64,000 bases of DNA from Terriglobia bacterium (GTDB lineage Bacteria; Acidobacteriota; Terriglobia; Bryobacterales; Bryobacteraceae), in NCBI GenBank assembly GCA_021324615.1, contig JAJPIT010000016.1, positions 1 to 64,000 on the forward strand, given 5' to 3'. Under the pieces are notes generated by a model. That model made no database searches. It saw nothing but the letters and a program-made list of their open reading frames with translations, and was not told the DNA's origin. Both the position numbers and the translations under genes were made by a program. How positions within the stretch are numbered: the stretch's first letter is position 1; every line of letters starts with the position of its first letter. Below, one piece after another: positions 7,717-38,574 of the stretch.

Positions 7717-7721
7717 CAGAC

Positions 7722-14891: not shown

Positions 14892-16124
14892 TTACTCTTC
14901 TCCGCGGATCAGGTCTTCGTACGATTCGCGGCGGCGGATGATGCGCCACTGGCTGCCCTCCACCAGAATCTCCGCGGCGCGGGGCCGCGAATTGTAGTTG
15001 GACGACTGGGCGAATCCATAGGCTCCTGCCGCGAGCACGGCGAGGACGTCTCCGGGGAAAACTTGCGGGATTTCACGATCGCGCGCGAGAAAATCGCCGG
15101 TTTCGCAGACCGGCCCGACGATGTCGGCGCGCAGCATCGGCGCTTGGGTTTGCCGCACCGGCAGGATGTGGTGATAGGCGCCGTAAAGGGCGGGACGAAT
15201 CAGATCGTTCATGGCCGCGTCCACCACGACAAGCTCCTTCTCTCCGGTCCTTTTCCGGTACAGCACGCGGGTGAGCAGGACGCCGGCGTTTCCGGCGATG
15301 GAGCGGCCGGGCTCGATCAGGATGTGCAGGCCGCGGCCGGCGGCTCGTTCCCGCACCTGCTTCACAAATCCGGCAATGTCCGGCTCGGCATCCTCCGGCT
15401 GGTAGGCGATGCCGACTCCTCCGCCAAGGTCGGCGTGGCGAATGTCGAATCCCTGCGCGCGCAGCCGGTCGATCAGCAGCATCAGGCGATCGAGCGCGGC
15501 AAGCAGCGGCGCGGAATCGAGGAGCTGCGATCCGATGTGGCAGCTTACGCCTTCGAGCGAGAGATTTTTCAGCTCGCGCGCCCGCAGATAAACGGCTTCC
15601 GCCTCGCCGATATCGACGCCGAATTTGTGCGCCAGGCGGCCGGTGGAGATGTAGGCGTGGGTGGCGGTGTCCACATCGGGATTGACGCGCAGAGCGACGC
15701 GGGCCTTCCGGCCGCGGCGATGAGCGAGAGCGTCGATCAGGGCCAGCTCCGGCTCGGATTCGGCGTTGAAGACGAAGATGCCGGCCTCCAGCGCCTGATC
15801 GATCTCCGCGGCGGTCTTTCCGACGCCCGAAAACACGACGCGCGCCGGATCGCCGCCCGCCTTCCTCACGCGATAGAGCTCGCCGCCGGAGACGATATCG
15901 AATCCAGCGCCGGCGCGGGCCAGCAGCCGAAGAATCGAAAGATTGCTGTTGGCCTTAACCGAGTAACAAATCGAATGGGGGTCCGGGCCGAAGGCGGCGT
16001 CGTAGGCGCGGAAATTTCGCCCGATCGCGGCCGAGGAATAGACGTAGGCGGGCGTGCCGGCCCGCGCGGCGATTTCGGCCAGCGGAGCTTCTTCCAGATA
16101 TAAAACGCGGTCGCGATAGGTCAT
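14892..16124 (-). CDS. lysA: Diaminopimelate decarboxylase
   Basis: This 410-residue PLP enzyme makes the last step of lysine synthesis, decarboxylating meso-diaminopimelate. Motifs seen: YSVKANSN (PLP lysine), CHIGSQ, IEPGRSIAGNAG, GPVCETGDFLA (substrate cysteine) and YGFAQSSNYN. The ATG at 16124 overlaps the TGA of the upstream phosphatase gene (TGATG), so translation is coupled. It sits 16 kb from the dap operon in an operon with deoC and an RsbU-type phosphatase, not with the riboswitch-controlled genes. Confidence 0.95.
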   Translation of the reverse strand: MTYRDRVLYLEEAPLAEIAARAGTPAYVYSSAAIGRNFRAYDAAFGPDPHSICYSVKANSNLSILRLLARAGAGFDIVSGGELYRVRKAGGDPARVVFSGVGKTAAEIDQALEAGIFVFNAESEPELALIDALAHRRGRKARVALRVNPDVDTATHAYISTGRLAHKFGVDIGEAEAVYLRARELKNLSLEGVSCHIGSQLLDSAPLLAALDRLMLLIDRLRAQGFDIRHADLGGGVGIAYQPEDAEPDIAGFVKQVRERAAGRGLHILIEPGRSIAGNAGVLLTRVLYRKRTGEKELVVVDAAMNDLIRPALYGAYHHILPVRQTQAPMLRADIVGPVCETGDFLARDREIPQVFPGDVLAVLAAGAYGFAQSSNYNSRPRAAEILVEGSQWRIIRRRESYEDLIRGEE

Positions 16125-32479: not shown

Positions 32480-33316
32480 CTAACGGAGAAGGTCCTCCAG
32501 TTGGACGCGCGCGTCGGTTTTTTCGTCGCGGTATTTCACGATCACCGGAGTGTAAAGCGAAATGCCCCAGTCCTTTCCGCGTCCATGGGAAACGGCTCGC
32601 GAGCCGGGCACCACCACCGCCCCTTCCGGCAAAATCAGCGGCGTCTCGCCCGAGGCGGCATACACCTGGCCGCGGACGATGTCATAGACAGGCGTCGACC
32701 GGGTGAGAATCGTGCCGCTGCCCAGAACACAGCGCCGCTTGATCACGGCGCCTTCATAAACGCCGCAATTTCCGCCGACCAGAACTTCGTCCTCGATAAT
32801 CACCGGCAGCGCCCCGACCGGCTCAAGAACGCCCCCGATCTGCGCGGCGGCGGAAATATGGCAGTTGCGCCCGATCTGCGCGCAACTGCCCACCAGAGCG
32901 TGCGAATCGATCATGGTGCCGTCGCCGACCCAGCTCGCCGTGTTGATGTACATCGGAGGCATGCAGGTGACGCCCTTGCCGATATAGGCGCCGTCGCGGA
33001 TGCTGGAGCCTCCGGGAACAATGCGGACGCCGCTTTCCGCTGTCAGATGCTTCACCGGCCAGGTGGATTTGTCGAACATCGGCTGGCGGGCCCGATCGAC
33101 CGACATATCGACCACCATCCCCATGCGGAATCCGACCAGCACACCTTTTTTGACCCATTCGTTCACCCGCCATCCGGTGGGCGCGGACGGGTCGGGTTCG
33201 GCCGCGCGGATCTGGCCCTGGTTCAGCGCCTGCTTGAAGCGCTGGAAAAGAGCGAAGTGAAAATCGGTGTAATTTGCGGGTTTTTGATCGAATAATGCTT
33301 CAATTTCAGTCCGCAT
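32480..33316 (-). CDS. dapD: Tetrahydrodipicolinate N-succinyltransferase
   Basis: This 278-residue left-handed beta-helix acyltransferase transfers succinate from succinyl-CoA to tetrahydrodipicolinate, the committed step of the succinylase route to lysine and DAP. The hexapeptide-repeat core is visible (VRIVPGGSSIRDGAYIGKG, SWVGDGTMIDSHALVGSCAQ, EDEVLVGGNCGVYEGAVIKR). The helical N-terminus is typical (FHFALFQRFKQALNQG). It is the last gene of the lysine operon and its ATG overlaps the end of dapA by 11 bases, so translation is coupled. Confidence 0.95.
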   Translation of the reverse strand: MRTEIEALFDQKPANYTDFHFALFQRFKQALNQGQIRAAEPDPSAPTGWRVNEWVKKGVLVGFRMGMVVDMSVDRARQPMFDKSTWPVKHLTAESGVRIVPGGSSIRDGAYIGKGVTCMPPMYINTASWVGDGTMIDSHALVGSCAQIGRNCHISAAAQIGGVLEPVGALPVIIEDEVLVGGNCGVYEGAVIKRRCVLGSGTILTRSTPVYDIVRGQVYAASGETPLILPEGAVVVPGSRAVSHGRGKDWGISLYTPVIVKYRDEKTDARVQLEDLLR

Positions 33317-34208
33317 GCGTGCCCCGCGCGCCCGCCAGCAGGCCGCTCGATCTCAGCACCGCTTCGATTTTGGCCTGATTCGCCGCCGACGGAGCGCACA
33401 TCGGCAGCCGCCAGACCGGCTCCAGCAGGCCCATGAGAGCCATCGCGGCTTTGACCGGGATGGGATTCGATTCGACGAAGTTCACTTCCATCAGCGGCAG
33501 CCATTTGCGCTGCAGTTCCCGCGCCTGAGCGAACTGGCCGCTCATTGCGAGCTGCGCCAGGCGCGTCATTTCGGCTGGAATTTCGTTGGAGACCACCGAC
33601 ACGATGCCGCGGCCGCCGAGGGCGATCAGCGGAATGGTGATGGAGTCGTCCCCGCTGAGGACGTAGAATCGTTCGGGCACCTCGTGAACCACGCGCGCCA
33701 TCTGGCTGATATTTCCCGAGGCTTCCTTGACCCCTACGATGTTGTCGATTTCGGCCAGGCGTTTCAGCGTGGCGGGCTCGACGTTGACTCCCGTCCGGCC
33801 TTGCACGCTATAGACCACGATCGGCAGCGGAACGGCCGCGGCGATGGCTTTATAGTGCTGATAGAGACCTTCCTGGGTCGGCTTGTTGTAGTAAGGCGTG
33901 ACGGAGAGAATCCCGTCGACGCCGATTTCCCGGAGCTCTTTGGCGAGCTCGATCACTTCGGCGGTGTTGTATCCGCCGGCCCCGCCCAGGACGGGAACTT
34001 TGCCCTTGGCCTCCTCGACCGTGATTTCGATGACGCGCAGATGTTCGGCCCGCGTGAGCGTGGGGCTTTCGCCGGTGGTGCCGCAGGGGACCAGGAAATC
34101 GATTCCGGCGTCGATCTGGCGGCGAATCAGGCGCCGCAGCGCGGATTCGTCGATGCGCAGATCTTTTTGAAAGGGGGTGACCAGGGCCGTGCCGCATCCT
34201 GTGAACAT
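33306..34208 (-). CDS. dapA: 4-hydroxy-tetrahydrodipicolinate synthase
   Basis: This 300-residue class I aldolase condenses pyruvate with aspartate semialdehyde. It starts MFTGCGTALVTPF. CGTTGESPTL binds pyruvate. The Tyr of the catalytic triad lies in VVYSVQGRTGVN, where most relatives have YNVP rather than YSVQ. The Schiff-base lysine is in GVKEASGN. The ATG at 34208 is chosen because it gives the family N-terminus with AGAGGC upstream; the frame runs on 5' only into the dapB shadow. It is 40 bp after dapB. Confidence 0.95.
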   Translation of the reverse strand: MFTGCGTALVTPFQKDLRIDESALRRLIRRQIDAGIDFLVPCGTTGESPTLTRAEHLRVIEITVEEAKGKVPVLGGAGGYNTAEVIELAKELREIGVDGILSVTPYYNKPTQEGLYQHYKAIAAAVPLPIVVYSVQGRTGVNVEPATLKRLAEIDNIVGVKEASGNISQMARVVHEVPERFYVLSGDDSITIPLIALGGRGIVSVVSNEIPAEMTRLAQLAMSGQFAQARELQRKWLPLMEVNFVESNPIPVKAAMALMGLLEPVWRLPMCAPSAANQAKIEAVLRSSGLLAGARGTHAD

Positions 34209-34248: not shown

Positions 34249-34932
34249 TCAAGCGCCTCGCGTCTGGCCGAATAACACGTCCTCGAATTTGTAGACGCCG
34301 CGCTTGCCGGGAATCCATTGCGCCGCTTTGAGGGCGCCCCGCGCGAATCCCTCGCGGCTGCGCGCGGCATGGCGCAGCGTGATCGTGTCGGCCGCCGAAT
34401 CGAAGCCGATTTCGTGGGTGCCGGGGTGCGCGCCGGCGCGATTGGAGCTGGTATCGATCGGGCGGGCGTAGCCGGCCCGCTTCATATCCTCGACCAGCTT
34501 GACCAGCGTGCCGCTGGGGGCGTCCTTTTTCGTGTGGTGATGAATCTCCCAGGCCCAGGCGCCGTACTGCGGCTCGTTGGCGAGCAGGCGCGCGGCCTCG
34601 CTTACCAGGCGGGCGAAGACGTTGACGCCGATTGAGAAATTCGGGCTCCAGACCAGCGCGGAGCCGTGGTTTTCTATGGCGGCGCGGACCCGTTCGAAGT
34701 CCTGGAACCATCCGGTGGTGCCGACGACGGCGGGTATCTTCAACTCCGCCAGCTTTTCGACGTTGGCGGCGACGGCCCGCGGCTCGGTGAACTCGACGGC
34801 CACGTCGGCGCCGCGGGCCTGTTCGATCTGCTGGCCGAGATCGATGCGCGCGTGGACGGAAAAATCGTACTCCGGAGCGAGCTGCTCGAGGAAACGCCCC
34901 ATTTTGCCGTAACCGATGATCGCCAGTTTCAT
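34249..34932 (-). CDS. dapB: 4-hydroxy-tetrahydrodipicolinate reductase
   Basis: This 227-residue NAD(P)H reductase for the product of DapA has an N-terminal Rossmann fold (MKLAIIGYGKMGRFL) and the catalytic motif EIHHHTKKDAPSGT. It is shorter than E. coli DapB (273); the early part of the nucleotide domain is compact. The start ATG overlaps the lysC stop (ATGA), so translation is coupled to lysC. Third dap step in the operon order asd-lysC-dapB-dapA-dapD. Confidence 0.95.
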   Translation of the reverse strand: MKLAIIGYGKMGRFLEQLAPEYDFSVHARIDLGQQIEQARGADVAVEFTEPRAVAANVEKLAELKIPAVVGTTGWFQDFERVRAAIENHGSALVWSPNFSIGVNVFARLVSEAARLLANEPQYGAWAWEIHHHTKKDAPSGTLVKLVEDMKRAGYARPIDTSSNRAGAHPGTHEIGFDSAADTITLRHAARSREGFARGALKAAQWIPGKRGVYKFEDVLFGQTRGA

Positions 34933-36272
34933 TCAAACGCCGCCGGATCGGGATTGCGGAAAAACTCCGCGTGCAGCGATTCTACCGCGCGGCGCAGGTC
35001 CGCTGCCGCGACCACCAGGCTGAAGTTCAGCAGCGAGGCTCCCTGGGAAACCATCCGCACGTTGACGTCTTTGAGCGCGCCGAAAATCCGGGCGGCGACG
35101 CCGGGCGTGTGGCGGAGGTTATCGCCCACCAGGCAGACGATGGACTGATCGGTTTCGACCGACACTTCGGAAAACGTTTCCAGCTCGGCGCGAATGGAAG
35201 CCAGCGCGCGGATATTATCGATGGTCATCGAGACGCTGACTTCAGAGGTGGCCAGCATATCGACGGGGGTTTCGAAGCGGTCGAAGACCTCGAAGATCCG
35301 GCGCAGGAAGCCGTGGGCCATCAACATGCGCGTGCTGACGATATTGACCAGCGTGATATTCCGCTTGCAGGCGATGGAGCGGATCGCGTTGTTGCAGGGC
35401 GGCGCTTCGGCGACGATCAGCGTTCCCGCCACTTCCGGCCGGCGGGAGTTAAGAATGCGCACCGGAATATTCTTTTCGATGGCCGGCAGAACCGTGGCCG
35501 GATGCAGAACCTTGGCGCCGAAGTAGGCCAGCTCGGCCGCTTCGGCGAAGGAACAGGTTTTCACGCGGTAGCCGCCGGGCAGGATTCCGGGATCGGCGGT
35601 CAGCATGCCGTCGACGTCGGTCCAGATCTGAATTTCGCTCGCCCCGATGCCCGCGCCGACGATGGCGGCGGTGTAATCCGATCCGCCGCGGCCGAGTGTG
35701 GTGGTGACGCCGTCTTCGGTGGAGGCGATGAATCCGCCCATCACCACCACCTGATTGCGGGCCAGCGGCGGAATGGCGGCCGCAAGCCGGGCGTACGTCT
35801 CGGCGAACAGCGGCGCGGCCTGGGTGTGGCGGCGGTCGGTGACGATCAATTTTCGCGAGTCCAGGTGGACGGCGTTCAACCCCCGCCGGCAGAAGGCGGC
35901 GGTTACGATGAGGCTTGAAAGGCGCTCGCCGAAGGCGGAGATGGCGTCGGTGGCGCGCGGCGTGAGCTCGCCCATCACCGCCAGGCCGCGGACCAGCTCG
36001 CCCAGCTCGGAAAAATGGGCGTCGATTTCCGCCTCCGCGTCCCAGGATTCGCGGCGATGAAATTCGCGGAGCTGAGCCAGTTGGTCGAGCGCCTCCTGGC
36101 GCCGTCCGGCGGCGGCCAAGGAAGCGATCGCCAGGAGCTGGTTGGTGGTCTTGCCCATGGCCGAGACAACCACCACCGGCCGCTGTGCGATGCGCGCTTC
36201 GACGATGCCTGCCACCCGCGCGATGGCCTCTCTGGATTCGACGGAGGTGCCGCCGAATTTCATCACGATCAT
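34929..36272 (-). CDS. lysC: Aspartate kinase
   Basis: This 447-residue monofunctional aspartokinase phosphorylates aspartate, the entry step to lysine, methionine and threonine. Motifs: MKFGGTSVES at the N-terminus, GRGGSDYTAA for nucleotide binding, and KVLHPATVLPAIEKNIPVRI. Two ACT regulatory domains occupy the last 150 residues (TRMLMAHGFLRRIFEVFDRF, then VVAAADLRRAVESLHAEFF), implying feedback control by lysine or threonine. It overlaps asd by ATGA upstream and dapB by ATGA downstream. Confidence 0.95.
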   Translation of the reverse strand: MIVMKFGGTSVESREAIARVAGIVEARIAQRPVVVVSAMGKTTNQLLAIASLAAAGRRQEALDQLAQLREFHRRESWDAEAEIDAHFSELGELVRGLAVMGELTPRATDAISAFGERLSSLIVTAAFCRRGLNAVHLDSRKLIVTDRRHTQAAPLFAETYARLAAAIPPLARNQVVVMGGFIASTEDGVTTTLGRGGSDYTAAIVGAGIGASEIQIWTDVDGMLTADPGILPGGYRVKTCSFAEAAELAYFGAKVLHPATVLPAIEKNIPVRILNSRRPEVAGTLIVAEAPPCNNAIRSIACKRNITLVNIVSTRMLMAHGFLRRIFEVFDRFETPVDMLATSEVSVSMTIDNIRALASIRAELETFSEVSVETDQSIVCLVGDNLRHTPGVAARIFGALKDVNVRMVSQGASLLNFSLVVAAADLRRAVESLHAEFFRNPDPAAFE

Positions 36273-37324
36273 CGCGCCAGCCAGCCCTCCGAGTGCATTA
36301 GCTCCGCGTTCAGCACCGCCGCCCCGGCCGCGCCGCGGACGGTGTTATGGCCCAGCGCCACGAACTTGTAGTCGAGCACCGGGCAGGGCCGCAGGCGGCC
36401 GACGAATACGGCCATGCCGTTTTCCCGCTCCACGTCGCGGCGCGGCTGCGGGCGGTCGGGTTCTTCCATATAGATCACCGGACAGGGTGGAGCGCTGGGC
36501 AGGCCTTTCCGCTGCGGCACGCCTTGCCAGCCGCGCAGTGCGGCGATGATTTCGGCCGCGCTGGGCTTGTGTTCAAACTCCACGGATACGCACAGCGTGT
36601 GGCCGTCGACCACCGGCACGCGGTTGCACTGCGCGCTGACCCGGGCGGCGAGCGGCTCCACGCGGTGGTCGCGGAATTCGCCGAGAATCTTTTGCGTTTC
36701 CCGCTCCATCTTGTCTTCTTCTCCGCCGATGAAGGGGATGACGTTGGCGTTGATGTCCAGGGAGGCCACGCCGGGGTAGCCCGCTCCGGAAATGGCCTGC
36801 ATGGTGGTCACCATCACGCGGCGAATCCCGAACCGCTTCAGCGGCGCCAGAGCCATGACCAGAACCACGGTCGAGCAGTTGGGGTTGGTGACGATCTGGC
36901 CCTTCCAGCCGCGCCGTTTCTGCTGTTCCGGAATCAGTTGCAGGTGGTCGGCGTTGATTTCGGGAACCAGCAGCGGCACGTCTTCCTCCATGCGGTGGTT
37001 GCGCGAATTGGAAACGACGACGTGGCCGGCCTGCGCAAAGGCGCGCTCGATTTCGGTGGCCACGGAGGCGTCCATGGCGGAAAAGACCAGCCGCGGCGTA
37101 TCCTTGGACGGCTTGCATTCGTTGACCATCAGATCGCGCGCATGCTGCGGCGTCACGCCGCCGAGCCGCCAGGAAGCCGCCTCGCGATAGGGTTTCCCGG
37201 CCGACCGGTCGCTCGCGCCCAGCCAGGCCAGATCGAACCATGGATGATCGCGCAGGAAGCTGACAAACTCCTGGCCGACCATGCCGGTCGCGCCCAACAC
37301 ACCCACCTGAATTTTTTCGCTCAT
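36269..37324 (-). CDS. asd: Aspartate-semialdehyde dehydrogenase
   Basis: This 351-residue NADPH enzyme reduces aspartyl phosphate to aspartate semialdehyde. The N-terminal Rossmann motif GVLGATGMVGQEF and the catalytic cysteine in TNPNCSTVVLVMAL are clear, as is the active-site histidine region CNRVPVVDGHTLCVSVEF. It is the archaeal/yeast-like class by length and motif spacing. The ATG at 37324 overlaps the TGA of the upstream peptidase gene; an in-frame extension upstream is only a shadow. Probably translated by coupling. Confidence 0.95.
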   Translation of the reverse strand: MSEKIQVGVLGATGMVGQEFVSFLRDHPWFDLAWLGASDRSAGKPYREAASWRLGGVTPQHARDLMVNECKPSKDTPRLVFSAMDASVATEIERAFAQAGHVVVSNSRNHRMEEDVPLLVPEINADHLQLIPEQQKRRGWKGQIVTNPNCSTVVLVMALAPLKRFGIRRVMVTTMQAISGAGYPGVASLDINANVIPFIGGEEDKMERETQKILGEFRDHRVEPLAARVSAQCNRVPVVDGHTLCVSVEFEHKPSAAEIIAALRGWQGVPQRKGLPSAPPCPVIYMEEPDRPQPRRDVERENGMAVFVGRLRPCPVLDYKFVALGHNTVRGAAGAAVLNAELMHSEGWLAR

Positions 37325-38316
37325 TTGAGTAACTGCCTCACCATGTTTTGGTAGATCCGCACTGCCTCGGCGATCTCCTTTTTTGGCACACGCTCCTCGG
37401 CGGTGTGCGCAAGATGAATACTGCCGGGACCGAGCAGGAACGGCTCGCCCCAGGCGCCGTTGAATGTCGGAATGTCGGTGGCGAACGATACGACGCTGGT
37501 TTCGAATCCGTCGAGCCGGCCGAATTTTTGCGCGGGAAGGCACAAAACTTCGGTGAGCTCGGCCTGGCCGTTCACAACCTCCGCCATGGCGGATCGGGTG
37601 GATGCGCCATCGTCCACCAGGCGGAAGAAAATCTCGGCCTTTGCGAAATCCGGAATGACGTTCGGCGCGCGGCCGCCTTCGATGGTGCCGATGTTGACGG
37701 TGCTGGGGCCAAACATCTCATCCACGGGAAGCTTCATGCGCCGCAGGCGCTCCAGGACGTCAAGCAGTTTCTCGATCGCCGATTCGCCCAGATGCGGATA
37801 GGCGGAGTGGGCCATCCGGCCGCGCGCGGCGATCTCAAAGCGCAGCGCGCCCTTGGAACCGAGCGCGAGCTTATTTTCGGTCGGCTCGCCGTTGATCAGA
37901 AAACGCGTGCCGCGCGGGTCTTTTGCGGCCGCCTTTGCGCCCGCGCTGTTCCGCTCCTCGCCGACCACGAACAGCAGCGCGGCCCGGCGTTCGCCGGAGG
38001 CGAGCAGATCCTGAACGGCGAAGATCATCGACGCGATGATGCCCTTGGTGTCGCAGGCGCCGCGGCCCCAGATGAACTGATCGTCCTCGCGCGAGGCGAA
38101 AAAAGGCGGGACGGTGTCGATATGGGTGGAAAGGGCGACCACCGGCGGATCCCAGCGCGCGAAGACGTTGAAGCGGCCCGGCTCGACCGGCATGCGCTCG
38201 ACGCGCGCGCCGGGGATCTTCGAAAGATAGTCGAACAGAAACTCCCCCACGCGCTCCTCGCAGGGAGTGACGGAGTCGATATCGACCAGCGCTCTGGTGA
38301 GCTCAAACAGATTCAT
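37321..38316 (-). CDS. M20-family zinc hydrolase, probably succinyl-diaminopimelate desuccinylase
   Basis: This 331-residue M20/M28-fold deacylase is the first gene of the lysine operon. Metal ligands: THIDTVP (His), GACDTKG (bridging Asp), VVGEERNSAG (two Glu) and a final His in GPGSIHLAH. Its place in a dap operon that uses DapD makes DapE, which removes succinate from N-succinyl-LL-DAP, the likely function. By sequence alone it could be another M20 deacylase such as acetylornithine deacetylase. The ATG at 38316 is used; an upstream ATG lies inside the riboswitch stem and is unlikely. Confidence 0.85.
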   Translation of the reverse strand: MNLFELTRALVDIDSVTPCEERVGEFLFDYLSKIPGARVERMPVEPGRFNVFARWDPPVVALSTHIDTVPPFFASREDDQFIWGRGACDTKGIIASMIFAVQDLLASGERRAALLFVVGEERNSAGAKAAAKDPRGTRFLINGEPTENKLALGSKGALRFEIAARGRMAHSAYPHLGESAIEKLLDVLERLRRMKLPVDEMFGPSTVNIGTIEGGRAPNVIPDFAKAEIFFRLVDDGASTRSAMAEVVNGQAELTEVLCLPAQKFGRLDGFETSVVSFATDIPTFNGAWGEPFLLGPGSIHLAHTAEERVPKKEIAEAVRIYQNMVRQLLK

Positions 38317-38328
38317 AAATGTAGAGAT

Positions 38329-38359
38329 GGAGCGAAAGGGGAGGTCCCGATAGCGCTCC
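38329..38359 (-). promoter_or_regulatory. Possible switching hairpin of the lysine riboswitch
   Basis: GGAGCG at the end of the aptamer can pair with CGCTCC 19 bases downstream. Forming this stem would use the conserved GGAG core and part of the P1 strand, so it cannot coexist with the lysine-bound fold. No U-rich terminator is seen, so control may act on translation start. Confidence 0.4.
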
Positions 38360-38526
38360 ATTCGCTGTTGCCACGAATGACAGTGAGCAGGTGTTAGCCT
38401 TGCTCACCAACCGCCGCGCGGCGGGACGATGCGGCGATTTCGGCGAGGCTGCCCCTTTCGCCAGCCGCTCCGTGCCCGCCGGAACCGCGCGCCTGGCTAC
38501 TGATGGCCCCCGCTCCTCTATCGAAC
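38347..38526 (-). ncRNA. Lysine riboswitch (L box) in the leader of the lysine operon
   Basis: Read on the minus strand, the leader carries every conserved element of the lysine aptamer in order: CGATAGAGGAGCG (P1 and loop-E side), CAGTAGCCAG pairing with CTGGC (P2), GAAAGGGGCAGCCTCGCCGA, a P4 stem GTGAGCA/TGCTCAC, CTGTCA, a P5 stem TTCG/CGAA and GGAGCGCTATCG closing P1. It sits 31 bases upstream of the first gene of the M20-asd-lysC-dapB-dapA-dapD operon. It should repress when lysine is bound. Fit to the family pattern is by eye, not by covariance model. Confidence 0.9.
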
Positions 38527-38528
38527 CG

Positions 38529-38555: not shown

Positions 38556-38561
38556 AGGATA
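38556..38561 (-). promoter_or_regulatory. Candidate -10 box of the lysine operon promoter
   Basis: TATCCT on the minus strand lies upstream of the leader hairpin; TTTGAT 16 bp further up is a weak -35. It overlaps the start region of the divergent BrkB gene. Confidence 0.3.
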
Positions 38562-38574
38562 GCACGGATGACGT

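Follow-up and report, generated by a model that had tools for sequence, protein, structure and literature searches.

A lysine riboswitch aptamer before a dapE-asd-lysC-dapB-dapA-dapD operon of the Bryobacteraceae, with a conserved pyrimidine tract as candidate expression platform

The stretch of DNA analysed here, which we refer to as the window, comprises 64,000 nucleotides of contig JAJPIT010000016.1 from a Terriglobia bacterium of the family Bryobacteraceae. On its minus strand, 3' of a structured leader RNA, lie six genes of lysine and diaminopimelate biosynthesis in the order dapE-asd-lysC-dapB-dapA-dapD. The first gene (37321..38316) encodes a dapE-like M20 family hydrolase whose best NCBIfam matches are to ArgE and DapE, every named family match falling under its curated cut-off. 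Solved relatives of this protein include both DapE and ArgE enzymes, and we infer its exact substrate from the neighbouring dapD gene. It is followed by asd (36269..37324), encoding an aspartate-semialdehyde dehydrogenase of the archaeal/eukaryotic-like class (TIGR00978, 458 bits, over cut-off), lysC (34929..36272), encoding an aspartokinase of the lysine-sensitive III type (NF006570, 502 bits against a cut-off of 455), dapB (34249..34932; 227 aa; TIGR00036, at cut-off with 122 bits), dapA (33306..34208; TIGR00674, 350 bits) and the succinyltransferase gene dapD (32480..33316; NF008808, 287 bits), all on the minus strand. Three of the junctions between these genes overlap by 4 nt and that between dapA and dapD by 11 nt, and as such the original prediction of six overlapping genes holds at four of five junctions and fails between dapB and dapA, which are separated by a 40-nt gap. 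To call this a complete dap operon, as was also proposed, is too strong, as lysA is located outside the operon (window 14898-16112), dapF is on a different contig, and there is no transaminase gene within the six-gene operon.

A cmscan search of the window identified the Rfam lysine riboswitch aptamer (L box, RF00168) at 38528..38343 on the minus strand, with a match to the full covariance model (positions 1-182 of 182) at 86.6 bits and an E-value of 2.7e-21, for a gathering threshold of 30 bits. This was the sole Rfam match at gathering threshold in the whole window, and a search of the whole genome (3.9 Mb, 99% complete) returned a single copy of the aptamer. The first-gene start codon at 38316 lies 26 nt past the end of the match. 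A lysine riboswitch had been proposed from the letters of the sequence at 38347-38526, within 4 nt of the model match, and the series of conserved elements then described is complete and in order in the cmscan alignment and sequence: AGAGG, the loop-E AGUA, GAAAGG, GCCGAA, CUGUCA and UGGAGCGCUA. All core motifs of the five-way junction (AGAGG, GCCGAA, CUGUCA and UGGAG) are present in the alignment, together with the loop-E AGUA. The covariance model takes no account of the L2-L3 kissing interaction, which therefore serves as an independent check of the aptamer. In the window, GGCGGG on the L2 side (38475..38480, minus strand) is complementary to CCCGCC on the L3 side (38420..38425, minus strand), and over 58 loci native L2/L3 combinations paired 5.2 bases versus 4.2 for swapped combinations, a native value that 0 of 5000 permutations reached. 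The L2-L3 kissing interaction is present in the window and covaries in relatives. We consider it highly probable that the leader RNA is a genuine lysine riboswitch and that it represses its operon, these two points being taken jointly, and the aptamer is predicted to bind L-lysine.

Upstream of the aptamer, a likely extended -10 element, TGC-TATCCT, can be read from the sequence (38556..38564, minus strand, with TATCCT at 38561-38556), and the expected transcription start is at approximately 38549 on the same strand; a generic promoter scan made no call at this element. In most relatives a TATCCT-type -10 accompanied by TTGAC or an extended TG is found just 5' of the aptamer, and because this -10 is only a few bases 5' of P1, the transcript in most relatives is likely to start with the aptamer itself. 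The window has the same -10 (TGCTATCCT) followed by a 5' UNCG hairpin, GCCCCGG-UCCG-CCGGGGC, which was correctly described in the original prediction and is evident in both sequence and fold at 38545-38528 (minus strand), before P1. This hairpin is absent in the relatives examined, where the aptamer starts only a few bases from the expected start of transcription, and it is therefore a lineage-specific local addition. Pairing of a downstream ACCUCC with the AGGAGG at 38554-38549 was also considered and dropped, as this AGGAGG is not conserved and lies at the expected transcription start or 5' of it.

Of 121 genomes from the window's family, 92 have the aptamer; for the phylum the count is 43 of 396. 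In all 15 operons checked the order dapE-asd-lysC-dapB is identical, and in 11 of these dapA and dapD come next. A known amino-acid riboswitch is the usual leader of a lysine and cell-wall precursor operon in this large and little-studied bacterial family. The asd gene of the window, of the TIGR00978 class, shares approximately 70% identity with its counterparts in the other 12 relatives that were checked. Three congeneric relatives (L144, L147 and L152) carry at this point of the operon a bacterial-class asd (TIGR01296/NF011456) of approximately 30% identity, which amounts to replacement of the gene in place within a single genus. Elsewhere in the phylum, one genus of another family has two lysine aptamers per genome (L075 and L122 in one genome, L077 and L123 in another). 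Ca. Solibacter usitatus was already listed in 2017 with a lysine riboswitch preceding asd-lysC (PMC5584792), and the earlier suggestion that the taxon is unusual for an L box is weakened by this prior listing of Acidobacteria. The two RF00168 elements share their aptamer structure, motifs, place before lysine biosynthesis genes and phylum, while the published record lists asd-lysC only and the window operon has six genes with the dapE-like gene first. The resemblance in riboswitch class and operon type makes the acidobacterium-like placement given in the original prediction plausible. We found no description of an expression platform in that report (PMC5584792), and no paper in the open-access literature on the mechanism of lysine riboswitches in Acidobacteria. 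The class and its occurrence in the phylum are therefore known, and the window aptamer adds a member; the unusual part is the expression platform, since members of the family mostly have no terminator and few have a Shine-Dalgarno motif, with a conserved pyrimidine tract instead.

In the window this tract spans the region between P1 and the start codon (38317..38344, minus strand), where 24 of 28 bases are C or U and only one is G, making it a candidate rut site. Over 83 family loci, positions -45 to -5 are 69% pyrimidine, with 41% C and 20% G, and the segment from about -40 to -13 is strongly pyrimidine-rich and purine-poor. By comparison, the regions upstream of other window genes average 49 +/- 7% pyrimidine, and cobalamin riboswitch leaders of the same family are 48% pyrimidine (p 0.0005), a small control set in which only seven leaders were long enough to be usable. 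Cobalamin leaders were used in place of TPP riboswitches, which were dropped as a control because they are too rare (2 of 61 family genomes). As the cobalamin leaders differ, the tract seems, on this small control, to be a feature of the lysine platform and not general to riboswitches of the family. In most cobalamin riboswitches of the family, the start codon is immediately preceded by a strong Shine-Dalgarno such as GAGGGAGGAGC. A Shine-Dalgarno-like motif is present in 11 of the 83 family lysine loci, and there is none before the start codon of the dapE-like gene in the window, where the sequence is CUCUACAUUUAUG. A terminator scan and folding of the window leader found no intrinsic terminator, that is, no stable hairpin with a U-run, and 3' of P1 there is just a 3-bp GGG/CCC stem. 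At two other loci (L030 and L048) the dapE start codon abuts the aptamer, the aptamer's own GGAG being 13 nt upstream of the start, and at these loci the ribosome site may be masked by the aptamer alone, with no separate expression platform.

Folding of the window leader revealed a candidate anti-aptamer hairpin (38327..38361, minus strand) in which AUGGAGCG (38361-38354) and CGCUCCAU (38334-38327), the latter ten bases before the start codon, form 8 bp of perfect pairing. AUGGAGCG takes in the base of P5, J5/1 and the two nucleotides immediately 5' of the P1 3' strand, so that formation of this hairpin traps the P1 3' strand (38353-38349) in the loop and excludes the aptamer. The centroid fold of 38365-38316 has an energy of -16.5 kcal/mol (z -3.85), with 0 of 200 shuffles as stable, and the anti-aptamer duplex test gave a z of -2.46. 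Across the family, compensatory-change tests on energy and on contiguous pairs were not significant, native not exceeding swapped combinations, the pairing was better than in shuffles (p<0.05) at just 12 of 66 loci, and a consensus fold of 66 loci from P5 to the start contained no convincing helix. Given the negative compensatory-change test, we do not claim an anti-aptamer helix conserved across the family. Purine/pyrimidine composition may account for the average strength of this pairing in the family, and it may be that the hairpin is peculiar to the window genome while the family pattern rests on composition. The tract had an unpaired probability over 76 loci of 0.47 with the aptamer held apart versus 0.31 when P1 was blocked (p 6e-12), and for the start codon region there was next to no change (0.51 versus 0.49); these values are from thermodynamic folding only, and represent the bound state by cutting off the aptamer, which itself removes pairing partners. 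Opening of the tract with an unchanged start region fits control via the tract rather than via the start codon.

We propose that the RF00168 aptamer serves as the 5' leader of the dapE-asd-lysC-dapB-dapA-dapD transcript and that this leader would switch between two folds. Without lysine, AUGGAGCG would pair with CGCUCCAU, breaking the aptamer and hiding the C/U tract before the start. With lysine bound, P1 would close and the C/U tract would become single-stranded, most likely allowing its use by Rho and an early end to transcription, such that the operon would be turned down. Taken as a whole, this best explanation of the locus has in our estimate a probability of about 0.8. Lysine binding, the sense in which it regulates the operon, the exchange of one fold for the other and the involvement of Rho are predictions. 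Rho prefers C-rich, G-poor, unpaired RNA, and riboswitch platforms of the thiC, ribB and mgtA type are Rho-dependent. Lysine-induced Rho-dependent termination is favoured because the tract is C-rich and G-poor, because the genome encodes Rho (723 bits) and because thiC provides a precedent. A full rut site in E. coli is longer than the window tract, which is short for one. Taken singly, the Rho step of lysine-induced early termination is a tentative proposal, somewhat short of an even chance, and it is possible, if doubtful, that the platform throughout the family, lacking both terminator and Shine-Dalgarno, is a conserved pyrimidine tract exposed to Rho. In the thiC riboswitch of E. coli, the ligand controls access to a C-rich, G-poor rut site in a Rho-dependent process (PMC5234074). 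The window resembles thiC in its C-rich, G-poor platform segment, but thiC has a different aptamer and ligand, and both the control of access by the aptamer and the action of Rho, which was shown in thiC (PMC5234074), are in the window a computed and a presumed property, respectively.

Lysine could alternatively act on translation without Rho, by altering access of the ribosome, or of S1, to a start codon without a Shine-Dalgarno. Such control would suit the short distance from P1 to the start in the window, the lack of a strong terminator in most relatives, the abutting start codon and GGAG of L030 and L048, and the frequency of starts without a Shine-Dalgarno in the window, where 6 of 39 genes have the motif (an estimate from the window only, with starts chosen mechanically). 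However, computed access to the start region is near-equal between the two states, there is usually no motif to hide, and a pyrimidine tract exposed by lysine should help S1 rather than repress. The family also has the Shine-Dalgarno option available, as its cobalamin riboswitches mostly carry a strong one, and we regard translational control as unlikely, if the least so of the alternatives. The lysC riboswitch of E. coli, which acts on translation and through RNase E, belongs to the same aptamer class and has a predicted anti-P1 stem (PMC5234074), but differs from the window, which has no Shine-Dalgarno to hide and a short leader from aptamer to start. The second arm of this E. coli control is a precedent (PMC5584792) for mRNA decay, in which lysine would open a site for RNase E-type cleavage within the tract. 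In the bound-like state the tract is computed to be single-stranded, but it is C-rich and not A/U-rich, and this explanation is improbable.

The lysC riboswitch of Bacillus subtilis and other Firmicutes is likewise of the same aptamer class as that of the window. In B. subtilis, an alternative pairing uses the 3' side of the aptamer and transcription ends by intrinsic termination, at a strong terminator hairpin with a U-run of a type absent in the window. A weaker form of such termination, in which a hairpin just 3' of P1 and a C/U-rich tail would halt polymerase when lysine is bound, is suggested by a loosely terminator-like hairpin 3' of P1 in 20 of 87 family loci, and by one subclade of 17 loci with a conserved hairpin, GAAnACGC...GCGUnnUUUCC, directly 3' of P1. 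The tails of the loosely terminator-like hairpins are, however, mostly C/U mixtures and not U-runs, the subclade hairpin is absent in the window, where P1 is followed only by the 3-bp stem, and clear terminators are found in other acidobacterial lineages, with stems of 12-14 bp and a long U-run 3' of the aptamer at six loci, such that weak intrinsic termination is very unlikely in the family. In these terminator-bearing lineages the aptamer precedes lysC where the gene is readable. The output type of the lysine aptamer varies by lineage within the phylum, one aptamer class being joined to different outputs. That the aptamer is a remnant that has lost switching, for which we found no supporting point, is highly improbable in view of its high full-length score, intact tertiary contact and association with one operon conserved over many genera.

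If the Rho step is correct, Rho-dependent riboswitch control, so far mainly enterobacterial, would extend to the lysine class and to the Acidobacteria. This Rho-dependent form of the lysine riboswitch would then exist beside cobalamin riboswitches that mostly have a Shine-Dalgarno, and beside terminator-using relatives in some other families. Several genes of the window, including those starting at 7721 (+), 7657 (-), 20736 (-) and 47407 (+), have no Shine-Dalgarno and show a sequence resembling a -10 element roughly ten bases 5' of the start codon, which suggests that leaderless transcripts are frequent among the window genes.
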